From positions 186,001 to 250,000 of the forward strand of contig AP026180.1 in assembly GCA_030295235.1 (NCBI GenBank): a stretch of DNA of 64,000 nucleotides. The letters run 5' to 3'. The position numbers and the translations under genes were made by a program. The notes below the pieces were generated by a model. The model ran no database searches and was not told the DNA's origin. It was given only the letters and a program-made list of their open reading frames with translations. How positions within the stretch are numbered: position 1 is the first letter of the stretch; each line of letters opens with the position of its first letter. This DNA comes from Fistulifera solaris (Eukaryota > Bacillariophyta > Bacillariophyceae > Naviculales > Stauroneidaceae). Positions 24,532 to 36,086 of the stretch are shown here, piece by piece.

Positions 24532-25214
24532 TTATAATTGCTTTGGTTGTAAGGCAATCGTCCCGACCACTACATTGTCATACAAATCCACGGTCGCCGC
24601 ACCCAGTGGATCCGCTCGTACCGTTTCCATTTGTCGCCAACACAGGTCCTTCCCTTCCAAAATCACTTTTCCTTCATCGCGACGATGATTGACTTGGGCG
24701 TAGAGTTGCATGGCAGGAACGAAATCGGTGCCATTGTTGTTGGGGAGAGGAATATCATCCGTTTGTAATGTCAGTAACAAGAATGGATACAATGGTTCTT
24801 TAAAGAGTCCCCAAACCCACAATCCATCTTTGCGATCATTCGGATCTTCCGATAAAATCCATCGGGAGGAATTGTTGATTTTGTCGTGTTGTTTTTCGTG
24901 TTTGATAGCATTTTCAATGTCCCCTGTGGTGGCTCGTACCCTTGGTCTTCGACGAATTGTGTTTCGATGGTAAACACCAACGGGTCTAATTTAGTGCCTT
25001 GTGCCGAAGTCAAACCCCGCATCACCAAACGAACATTCCAGGTCGTGGCTTCCGTCAATGTGGGCGCAGTATTAGCCGCGAGCCGTCGCGTCGTGTGTGC
25101 CGATCGAGAAGGTGTGACAACAAAGGCACTAATTGGGGTCGACAAAGCGACCAGTAGTAGACTCCAGCACACTAGTATTGAGAAAGCAGGTACCCGAGGA
25201 AGAGAATGTGTCAT
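24532..25214 (-). CDS. Plastid-targeted protein of unknown function (one frame break)
   Basis: It starts at 25214 with a signal peptide (ILVCWSLLLVALSTPISAF) whose cleavage site SAF-V has the Phe typical of diatom plastid import, followed by an Arg/Ser/Thr-rich transit region. The mature part begins ATTWNVRLVMRGLTS. The frame changes at the C4 run 24921-24924 (G4 on the coding strand). One more base gives YEPPQGDIENAIKH and then SRWILSEDPNDRKDGLWVWGLF, a sensible conserved-looking continuation to the stop at 24532 (about 227 residues). I do not recognise a named domain. The Trp-rich KDGLWVWGLFKEPLYPF block is probably the core of the family. An intron instead of an indel is possible but less simple. 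Confidence 0.6.
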
Positions 25215-25784: not shown

Positions 25785-27575
25785 ATGGCCCTTTCATCTT
25801 GGCTTCAATTAGCACTTTTTCTTGCTCTCGGGACTTTTCCTGTGAATTCCTTTTCCGTTTCGCACTTAGAAACGAAATTGAATTGGTGGAAGAATCGCTT
25901 TTCGCAAATGTCTCTCGAGGACATCTCGAAGGATTTAGTGCAACACGGATATCAATGGAAGAAAAAACAACAACAGCATCAATTAGAGAAAAAATCACAA
26001 GAGACATACACTGCTACCGGTACAACAACAACAACACCATTTGTCAAAGTACCCGGCTGCACAGCGAATGTTCATATACAACTCATTCTCACCTCCGATG
26101 CATCTACAACAATAAACTCCCGAACCATACAATCATTAGAAGGAACGGCAGATGCATTAGTGAGTCAAGGATTAGTTGCAGTCATCGCATCGTGTGTCGA
26201 GCAGGAATCCGAAGATGCCATTGGTCAAATATCGGCCGAAAGCATTACCACTCGATTGGGATTGCAACAACATCTCAGTCCAGGCCGGAACGACGGCGTT
26301 GCTAGTTTGTGGCGGACTCTGCAACAGTCACTGCAATCATCATCCCCAGCGAGTTTTATCACTAGTACAGAACCTAGCACTCAATCACAACAACCATCCG
26401 TGGCTCTGTTGTTGTCGGGTGGCGTTGACTCGTCCGTCGCATTGCGTTTGTTATTGCAACAAAACTATCGCGTCACGGCGTTTTATCTGAAAATATGGTT
26501 ACAGGACGAAAATGCGCATCTCGGAGGAACGTGTCCGTGGGAAGAGGATTGGAAGATTTGTCAACAAGTGTGTGAGCAAGCGAATGTGCCACTACAGGCA
26601 ATTAGTTTGCAACAAGAATATCACGAACGAGTCGTAGAGTATGCGATGGAGCAGGCTTCGTTGGGGCGGACGCCGAATCCGGATATTTTGTGCAATTCGC
26701 GGATCAAGTTCGGTTGCTTCTATGACGTATTGATGTCACAACAGGCGGAACAGTTTGATTATATTGCTACGGGTCACTATGCACGCGTCGAACGTGATGA
26801 CGACGATGCATCCGCTCGTTTATTTCGCGCACCCGATGCCGTCAAAGATCAATCGTATTTCTTGTGCACTTTAACACAAGAACAATTGCAAAAGACGTTG
26901 TTTCCATTAGGGCATCTTGAAAAGGCCCAAGTTCGACAATTGGCAGACGAGTTTGAGTTGCCGAATCGTCATCGTCCGGATTCGCAAGGACTTTGTTTCT
27001 TGGGACAGGTGAAATTCGATCAATTTCTTGAAAGTTATTTGGGCACGCAGCCAGGCTCTGTAGTTGATGCCGTGACGGGGGATAATATCGGGCAGCATCA
27101 AGGTGTTTGGTTTCACACGATTGGACAGCGCAAGGGCATCGGCAAAGCTTTGAATCCTCAAGCCACGGCACGCGGTCCTTGGTATGTCGTATCGAAAGAC
27201 CCGGCGCAGCGGATCGTTTATTGCACGAACCAATATGAGTTGTTTGACGCACAGCGAAAACATGTGGAACTTGAGGATATTACATGGATGTCAGGACAAC
27301 TGCCAGCGATGGTATCAGGCGGGAACGCTTGTCATTTAACTATGAAGTTGCGGCACGGTCCTCGACTGGCGCGGGGATTGTTACAATTGAATAATGCAGA
27401 TTTTTCAAAGGGTACGGTGGAGCTAGAACAAATGGACAGCGGCTTGGCGCCGGGACAATATGTTGTCTTTTACGCCGACGACGGCGAATGTTTGGGGAGT
27501 GGCATCATGAGTGAATCGCAATGGAATCGTCCCATATGTCTGGAGACCCAGGCAGTAGAACAAATGACTAGCTGA
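25785..27575 (+). CDS. mnmA: SufE domain fused to tRNA 2-thiouridylase MnmA, plastid-targeted
   Basis: Intact 596-residue protein. Residues 1-23 look like a signal peptide ending NSF, so plastid import is likely. Residues ~35-185 are a SufE/CsdE domain: VPGCTANVHIQ with the persulfide-accepting Cys92, GTADALVSQGLVAVI, and LGLQQHLSPGRNDGVASL. Residues ~205-590 are MnmA/TRMU: PP-loop SGGVDS (211-216), GRTPNPDILCN with Cys303, YIATGHYARV, KDQSYFL, SQGLCFLG with Cys404, and HTIGQRKG. MnmA adds sulfur to U34 of tRNAs for Lys, Glu and Gln using ATP; SufE takes sulfur from the SufS cysteine desulfurase. The fusion implies that sulfur passes directly within one polypeptide. Ordinary MnmA is about 360-420 residues. 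Confidence 0.9.
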   Translation: MALSSWLQLALFLALGTFPVNSFSVSHLETKLNWWKNRFSQMSLEDISKDLVQHGYQWKKKQQQHQLEKKSQETYTATGTTTTTPFVKVPGCTANVHIQLILTSDASTTINSRTIQSLEGTADALVSQGLVAVIASCVEQESEDAIGQISAESITTRLGLQQHLSPGRNDGVASLWRTLQQSLQSSSPASFITSTEPSTQSQQPSVALLLSGGVDSSVALRLLLQQNYRVTAFYLKIWLQDENAHLGGTCPWEEDWKICQQVCEQANVPLQAISLQQEYHERVVEYAMEQASLGRTPNPDILCNSRIKFGCFYDVLMSQQAEQFDYIATGHYARVERDDDDASARLFRAPDAVKDQSYFLCTLTQEQLQKTLFPLGHLEKAQVRQLADEFELPNRHRPDSQGLCFLGQVKFDQFLESYLGTQPGSVVDAVTGDNIGQHQGVWFHTIGQRKGIGKALNPQATARGPWYVVSKDPAQRIVYCTNQYELFDAQRKHVELEDITWMSGQLPAMVSGGNACHLTMKLRHGPRLARGLLQLNNADFSKGTVELEQMDSGLAPGQYVVFYADDGECLGSGIMSESQWNRPICLETQAVEQMTS

Positions 27576-34558: not shown

Positions 34559-36086
34559 ATGAGGATAACTGCGACGATAAGAACGACGAGAAGAGACCTG
34601 TGTCTGTGCTTTCTCTCCATCGCCTCATTTTGCATCGAATTTCGATTTACGTCTGCTTTTCTTCCGAATCATCCCTTATTTGCTGTAGCAAACACTCTTT
34701 CAAAACGCGCTTTTTCTTCTCAAGTCTACAACAATCGCAGGCATGAAGACGATGACGACGAGGATAACGAAGATGATATGATCGATGTCGATTCCTTAGG
34801 CAACTGGAGAGACTTTCGAAGATCACTCGGTCAATCCTTTTCTTCCTCGTCTTCCGTCCCAGAAATACGACCAGCGACATCCGTTAGCACCGAAAATGAA
34901 GCTGTATTAGCGACGCAGAATGAAGAACTGGCACTCGAATATCGGAATGGAGTTTGGGCACACGAAACTTCTGTGGTAAGATTCGTTTGATTCGTTTTGC
35001 GCTTTCGTTGTTACGTCCGCATAAGTGGCACTCAACAAGCGGTGTCTATTTCTCCAATTTTCATAATTTTAGCCGGAACTGGGCGGACTGATGGTACGCA
35101 TGCCGCTCGAAGTCGAATTGTACCGCAATCACAAACACTGCATACTCGGCAAACAATTTCGCAACAGCTTGGCCGCCAACCAACCGAACACCGACGAGGA
35201 GGATGACGACAATCGACGAACGTGGCGCAAAGCACATGGTCTCATACAATCACAAATGCTGCAATTGGCCGACAAAGTCAAACCGAGTGGAGAATTGGAT
35301 GCAGCCAAGTTGTCGACGAAACAATCCGAATTGTTGCAAATGTATTTGGATCATCAAGAGACCTGGCAGGAAGTATGTTTGATATATCAAAAAGAAGAGG
35401 CGTCTTCGGAAGCTACGAGTTGTATGGTGGTACTGAATCGACCCATGGCTATGAAGTTGACAGAGAATTTGGCGCAGCTCATCTTGTTTGGGAATCCGCC
35501 GGTCGAAGATGATCAGGATGAGCATTTGAACGAACAAGAAGCTTCCCAATTGGTGCGATTTCTACTCGCATTCGGTAGCGAGTGCGGTGTTTACATTGGT
35601 GGACCCGATCAACAGGATCAACCAGCACTGTTGTTACACGGCTTTGCAGAATTGCCGGGTGCGACGGAGATCGCCAACGGTCTCTATCAAGGAGGCTTGG
35701 AAGCCGCCATGGATGGCGTATTGCGCGGCAAGTATCGTGCTCTGGACTTTCGATTCTTTGTCGGGCGTCATGAATGCGAATCGCCTTTTTCAATGGAATT
35801 GCTCGTGGAATTGGGAAAATACCAACCCATAGCAGCGGCCCGATCGTTGGCATTGAAGCAATGCTTGTCTTTGCCCAAGCCGTTGTGGCATGAAGTGCTG
35901 GAACTGTGCGGAGGGAAATGGAAAGAAATGTCGACTTGGGAACGGACGAAAAAGGACACGATTCAATTTCAGATCCTAGACGATGATGACGAAGATATCG
36001 AAGATTGGGGAGGCGAAATAGTGGATGAGTTGAGTGAATTAGAGCTGGATGAAGACGACGTTGACGACGAATTTGGATGGCTCTGA
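34559..36086 (+). CDS. Plastid-targeted UPF0301/AlgH-like protein (two exons)
   Basis: Exon 1 is 34559..34975 and exon 2 is 35073..36086; the 97-nt intron starts GTAAGA, ends TTTTAG and is phase 0. The product is 476 residues. The leader RRDLCLCFLSIASFCIEFRFTS is followed by AF-LPN, the ASAF-type plastid signal. An acidic, disordered stretch follows. The C-terminal half shows UPF0301/DUF179 features: VLNRPMAMKL, GVYIGGPDQQD, LLLHGF, IANGLYQGGLEAAMDGVL and DFRFFVGRHE. Bacterial AlgH-type proteins are of uncertain biochemical function. The C-terminus is very acidic. Compared with bacterial members (about 190 residues) the protein has large N- and C-terminal additions. The family call rests on motif resemblance read by eye. 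Confidence 0.72.

Follow-up and report, generated by a model that had tools for sequence, protein, structure and literature searches.

The 64-kb stretch of DNA analysed here (the window) contains a gene that joins a SufE domain to a tRNA-thiolating enzyme of the MnmA family. It is a single open frame on the forward strand, with the following features (aa numbers refer to the encoded protein):

25785..27575, + strand: SufE-MnmA fusion gene, single open frame of 596 aa, no intron needed
25785..25850, + strand: probable signal peptide (aa 1-22), cleavage between VNS and F with F23 at +1, assigned by eye
25851..26024, + strand: probable transit peptide and a Q/K/T-rich stretch of low complexity (aa 23-80), low confidence
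26025..26327, + strand: SufE domain PF02657 (aa 81-181), from Pfam, alignment and fold matches
26058..26060, + strand: Cys92, equivalent by alignment of E. coli SufE Cys51 (persulfide acceptor)
26286..26288, + strand: Arg168, equivalent by alignment of E. coli SufE Arg119
26328..26399, + strand: S/T/Q-rich linker (aa 182-205), predicted confidence below 50 at aa 187-200
26400..27506, + strand: MnmA (aa 206-574), from PF03054, PF20259, PF20258 and TIGR00420
26415..26435, + strand: PP-loop SGGVDSS (aa 211-217), from sequence and alignment
26691..26693, + strand: Cys303, first catalytic Cys of MnmA (with C250 and D300), from sequence and alignment
26994..26996, + strand: Cys404, second catalytic Cys of MnmA, from sequence and alignment

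An earlier note on this DNA had described the frame as open throughout, and the 596 codons at 25785-27575 indeed contain no stop; given the base composition of the window only, the chance of an open frame of this length is approximately 3e-15. The same note's statement that there is no intron signal was nearly right. A scan with six donor hexamers, an AG acceptor and intron lengths of 60-197 in steps of three gave one in-frame candidate, GTGAGT...CAG at 26160-26327 (168 bp, aa 126-181), as the sole pair. This candidate lies wholly within conserved SufE sequence that its removal would delete, and the pair has probably arisen by chance. Third-position GC is 0.40 in the SufE part and 0.49 in both MnmA parts, with dips to 0.20 and 0.23 in two low-complexity stretches, and tblastn of the fusion protein against the 64-kb window gave no match besides the gene's own locus. 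The fusion is confirmed as real in the DNA. That the join is an artefact of assembly or gene modelling, or that most transcripts lose the SufE part by splicing, we regard as highly improbable: the in-frame pair across aa 126-181 would speak for it, but the single 1.8-kb frame lacks stops, the candidate intron is itself conserved SufE sequence, and the available text of PMC9420914 reports a Toxoplasma MnmA with the same domain order. As a separate observation, the GTGAGT...CAG pair is the only candidate that the scan gave for alternative splicing to yield an MnmA without SufE.

The protein was scanned for domains both whole and in part. In the whole-protein Pfam scan, PF02657 matches aa 82-181 with 50.7 bits (E 1.9e-13), above the curated cut-off of 27, so that the profile check proposed in the earlier note came out positive; with aa 1-203 scanned alone, the score is 53.6 bits at aa 81-181. 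The note had drawn the domain at approximately residues 35-185, and while its presence is borne out, that N-terminal limit is too generous, since Pfam starts at aa 81 or 82. The match spans profile positions 30/31-120 of 121, i.e., the first quarter or so of the profile is unrecognised. Helices are predicted, with low confidence, at aa 26-40, 44-54 and 58-66, the last also placed at about 57-72; those at 44-54 and about 57-72 may stand in for the unrecognised N-terminal part of SufE.

The acceptor cysteine named in the earlier note, Cys92, is found at that position in the translated frame and aligns with C51 of E. coli SufE. Our alignment comprised one E. coli, two alphaproteobacterial and five Bacteroidota SufEs plus the fusion protein, and both C92 and R168 are invariant in all 9 rows, counting the row of the fusion protein itself. 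According to the accessible part of PMC11408855, SufE-like folds have two residues that are conserved universally, Cys51 and Arg119 in the E. coli protein, and the R119A variant of SufE is inactive in desulfurase assays; judged from the alignment, C92 and R168 supply this universal Cys/Arg pair in the window protein. In overall sequence, identity between the SufE half and the aligned bacterial SufEs is only 20-30%. NCBIfam equivalogs score far below their cut-offs, both with aa 1-203 (PRK09296, 35.4 bits versus 160; CsdE, 28.8 versus 136.4) and with the whole protein (32.6 and 26.4 bits, respectively). By these profiles, the N-terminal half is a diverged SufE-domain part of a protein and not a stand-alone SufE or CsdE.

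Structure prediction agrees with this assignment. An AlphaFold2 model of the SufE part (aa 40-188, 13 sequences) has a mean pLDDT of 73.1 and a pTM of 0.64, and the first 9 Foldseek matches in the PDB are 8 SufE/CsdE entries and 1ni7, for which the PDB title gives a target number only. At the top are the SufEs of Salmonella and E. coli, E. coli CsdE and SufE chains from the SufS-SufE complex, with a best E value of 1.9e-4, two matches at E ≤0.001 and modest TM-scores of 0.45-0.55. The other rows in the alignment behind this model are SufE proteins, making the fold match supporting and not independent. The full-length model is of low quality (pLDDT 59.8, pTM 0.41; alignment of one MnmA and twelve SufE relatives), and its Foldseek matches include the MnmA entries 2hma (E 4.1e-26) and 2det (approximately 4e-26) as well as the SufE entries 3g0m (E 4.1e-4) and 1mzg (E 7.6e-4).

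The remainder of the protein had been called a complete MnmA, and the MnmA profile check bears this out with three Pfam-A domains within aa 206-574: the HUP domain PF03054 spans aa 206-407 (E 1.6e-69), followed by the PRC-barrel PF20259 at aa 413-479 and, at aa 492-574, the C-terminal barrel PF20258. The NCBIfam models TIGR00420 (trmU/MnmA; 352.5 bits, cut-off 236.95) and NF001138 (350.3 bits, cut-off 284) both cover aa 206-574. Cys303, Cys404 and the PP-loop (SGGVDSS, 211-217) are located where the earlier note had put them, and all 5 MnmA alignment rows share C250, D300, C303, C404 and the PP-loop. The invariance of the four residues agrees with the C-DXXC-C motif named in the accessible text of PMC10219651. 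As far as sequence can tell, the C-terminal half is a full member of the MnmA family, with predicted s2U34 activity. Taken as a whole, the reading of the gene as a SufE-MnmA fusion is supported by Pfam, by NCBIfam (for the MnmA half), by the putative catalytic residues and by the fold matches.

In diatoms and other algae with red-derived plastids, a phenylalanine directly after the signal-peptide cleavage site is a hallmark of plastid presequences. By eye and with a simple hydropathy scan (run with no background control), the N-terminus of the fusion protein has a hydrophobic core followed by VNS and, after the presumed cleavage, FSV. When the window was searched with loose criteria, and with no shuffled control, for a hydrophobic core with small-x-small-F behind it, 14 ORFs matched; the fusion gene is among them, at F18 and not at F23. 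Four other ORFs have textbook ASAF-type starts by eye (25214, - strand, ISAFVV; 34559, + strand, TSAFLP; 42494, - strand, ASAFVP; and 45985, - strand, ANAFVS). Given the signal-peptide-like start with F at +1 together with these four ORFs, the fusion protein is likely plastid-targeted, and the earlier note's label "plastid protein" is probably right.

With regard to the genomic setting, the window also encodes a PF01984 protein (which we take to be of the PDCD5 type), a SUMO-activating-enzyme-like protein (ThiF, UAE_UbL) and a protein with a helicase-associated (HA) domain, and no tRNA genes were found in the 64 kb. On the basis of these proteins and the lack of tRNA genes, we take the window to be nuclear eukaryote DNA. 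Its source we read as an ochrophyte, most probably a diatom. Two of the ORFs with ASAF-type starts have neighbours worth recording. The ORF at 24771-25214 (- strand), with its textbook ISAFVV plastid presequence, lies head to head with the fusion gene and is perhaps the first exon of a plastid protein. The ORF with the presequence at 34559 (+ strand) lies just upstream of a DUF179/AlgH-like ORF (35091-36086, + strand), and the two perhaps form one plastid protein with an intron.

We searched for the fusion in plasmids, phages, viral contigs and bacterial genomes. None of the 76 plasmid records and none of the 24 phage records that match the fusion protein cover at least 80% of its length. Among the best 30 of the 76 plasmid records, the top bit score for the MnmA half is 281 (Parabacteroides); among the matches listed, other Bacteroidota plasmid rows score 253-258 bits, and gammaproteobacterial and Bacillota rows 223-251 bits. 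In viral contigs, judged by frame length alone and without a Pfam scan, the longest SufE frame is 222 aa (20 of 22 loci) and the longest MnmA frame 488 aa (28 of 29 loci); an MnmA fragment (L064) and two SufE loci on the same contigs as L067 and L068 (L065 and L066) were left out of these counts. Direct searches with the fusion protein or its SufE part gave 0 relatives in viral contigs and 1 in genome contigs, the query being weak.

SufE is present in at least 161 of the 296 sampled Bacteroidota genomes. Six of the SufE frames among the Bacteroidota matches listed are at least 400 aa long, and four of these were scanned with Pfam: three consist of a class-V aminotransferase (cysteine desulfurase type) joined to SufE, one has SufE alone in a long frame, and none of the four contains MnmA. 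In the fifth (L024), the SufE place is covered by no started ORF of at least 350 aa, and in the sixth (L028), a 577-aa ORF covers it. A bacterial origin of the fusion was considered, and no fusion was seen among the plasmids, phages, viral contigs and sampled Bacteroidota; cyanobacteria and other phyla were outside the genome search.

Two further observations concern unfused genes. In Paracoccus ferrooxidans (L087; CP038202.1, 2375-3954), a SufE-family gene and mnmA are arranged tail to tail with 2 bp between them, and the matches in P. denitrificans, P. pantotrophus and P. versutus have similar spacing on opposite strands. It is possible that this adjacency reflects a functional pairing of the two genes without fusion. 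In the viral collection (IMG/VR), SufE genes occur at 20 loci (L067-L086; 12 distinct at 90%), two of them on contigs longer than 200 kb, and 19 of the 20 share no more than 30-40% identity with the SufE query from Sinorhizobium.

Fusions of this kind are already in print for apicomplexans. The profile-HMM results given in the available part of PMC9420914 place a SufE domain (519-589) on the N-terminal side of three tRNA_Me_trans matches in the Toxoplasma gondii MnmA TGGT1_309110, and a section heading of that paper states apicoplast localisation. The window protein has this apicomplexan-type architecture, with SufE N-terminal to MnmA in one protein, and both proteins are encoded by nuclear genes. 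Compared by description only, TGGT1_309110 differs in being much longer (matches extend to residue 1560) and in belonging to a non-photosynthetic apicomplexan. For Plasmodium falciparum MnmA, passages of PMC10219651 describe a SufE-like structural domain within a 421-aa N-terminal extension and propose a relay from SufS via this domain to MnmA; the same figure supplement also sets out the MnmAs of Babesia, Theileria, Toxoplasma and Eimeria for comparison. The window protein resembles P. falciparum MnmA in its N-terminal SufE-type domain and in the proposed sulfur path from SufS. However, homology searches had missed sulfur transferases in that case, and it was Phyre2 models that revealed the domain (PMC10219651, in the text available), whereas in the window protein Pfam detects SufE outright and the Cys/Arg pair is intact.

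Other SufE fusions join different partners. SUFE3 (SufE-NadA) and SUFE1 (SufE-BolA) of plants and algae are likewise plastid SufEs fused to a client or partner, which in these cases is quinolinate synthase or BolA and not MnmA (PMC8003979, in part). In the three Bacteroidota genomes above, SufE is also joined to a sulfur-transfer partner, but to the donor (a SufS-SufE type fusion) and not, as in the window protein, to the acceptor enzyme. A table in PMC8003979 lists plastid SUFS1, NIFS2, SUFE1 and SUFE3 for Phaeodactylum, and a SufS donor and separate SufEs are therefore to be expected in a diatom; "MnmA" does not occur in the main text of this algal SUF survey. Full-text searches, which took in neither most subscription papers nor supplements, brought up no SufE-MnmA protein reported from diatoms or other algae, nor is such a fusion mentioned in the accessible text of PMC12069591, PMC11153160, PMC6006212 and PMC7058544.

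The earlier note had contrasted the fusion with a bacterial route from IscS through the Tus relay. That route is the one of E. coli, where separate relay proteins connect IscS to MnmA; in B. subtilis, the desulfurase YrvO transfers sulfur to MnmA directly (both as outlined in PMC10219651, in part). Both systems have the same end reaction, s2U34, as is predicted for the window protein. We consider it likely that the window protein is a nuclear-encoded, probably plastid-targeted MnmA that uses its own SufE domain to relay sulfur from SufS to U34. After import, plastid SufS (assumed to be present) would desulfurate cysteine, and its persulfide would move to Cys92 of the fused SufE domain. The linker of approximately 24 residues, presumably flexible, would let the SufE domain swing to the MnmA active site; an S/T/Q-rich composition and confidence below 50 at 187-200 would permit such movement. 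Sulfur would then pass to either Cys404 or Cys303 of MnmA and onward to the adenylate-activated U34 of plastid tRNA-Glu, tRNA-Gln and tRNA-Lys. The tether may in this way give tRNA thiolation its own access to SufS, without competition with Fe-S assembly over the stand-alone SufE. We infer every step of this chemistry, the hand-off from SufS included; the same relay has been proposed for Plasmodium MnmA.

Genetic data from Plasmodium, as presented in portions of PMC10219651, bear on this proposal. The sulfur for MnmA comes from SufS, and the apicoplast is disrupted by deletion of sufS or mnmA but not of sufE. An MnmA that brings its own SufE would account for the fact that the apicoplast can be maintained without the stand-alone protein. 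Swift et al. nonetheless favour direct transfer from SufS to MnmA in Plasmodium, and SufE enhances SufS activity (PMC10219651, same portions). Both points would fit a SufE domain that mainly docks and activates SufS, with sulfur going directly to MnmA as with YrvO of B. subtilis, so that Cys92 need not carry it. We think this unlikely for the window protein, as a pure docking module would not need Cys92, which persists in a domain that has otherwise diverged strongly (20-30% identity).

Some MnmAs carry a [4Fe-4S] cluster, and the fused SufE domain could conceivably help to build or repair such a cluster on MnmA rather than act in the U34 relay itself. We view this as very unlikely, given that SufE normally passes on sulfur only and that building a cluster also needs the SufBCD scaffold. 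The idea does have precedent in SUFE3, whose SufE domain is presumed to act for the cluster of NadA (PMC8003979, in part), and the C-DxxC-C set, classed as D-type in the available text of PMC10219651, is present in the window protein. A built-in relay is the most economical reading; docking-only and cluster-building roles are possible.

What is new is the same architecture, with the putative catalytic residues intact, in what is probably a photosynthetic red-plastid lineage. This hints at one old fusion common to ochrophytes and apicomplexans, both of which have red-derived plastids. The fusion may have arisen once and been inherited by both apicomplexan and ochrophyte plastids, a scenario that we find possible but stop short of calling probable; it would then be a marker of shared red-derived plastid ancestry and the standard solution for moving sulfur from SufS to tRNA in plastids without a Tus relay. 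For the sulfur source of plastid MnmA, direct SufS transfer and a relay via fused SufE have both been proposed, and MnmA sulfur supply is an essential step in malaria parasites (PMC10219651, in the parts available). Within that frame the window protein is an incremental result, providing a comparison point for dating the fusion, and a clear SufE-MnmA fusion with its putative catalytic residues intact, in a relative that is probably photosynthetic, would make the relay idea testable in an alga that is both tractable and harmless.
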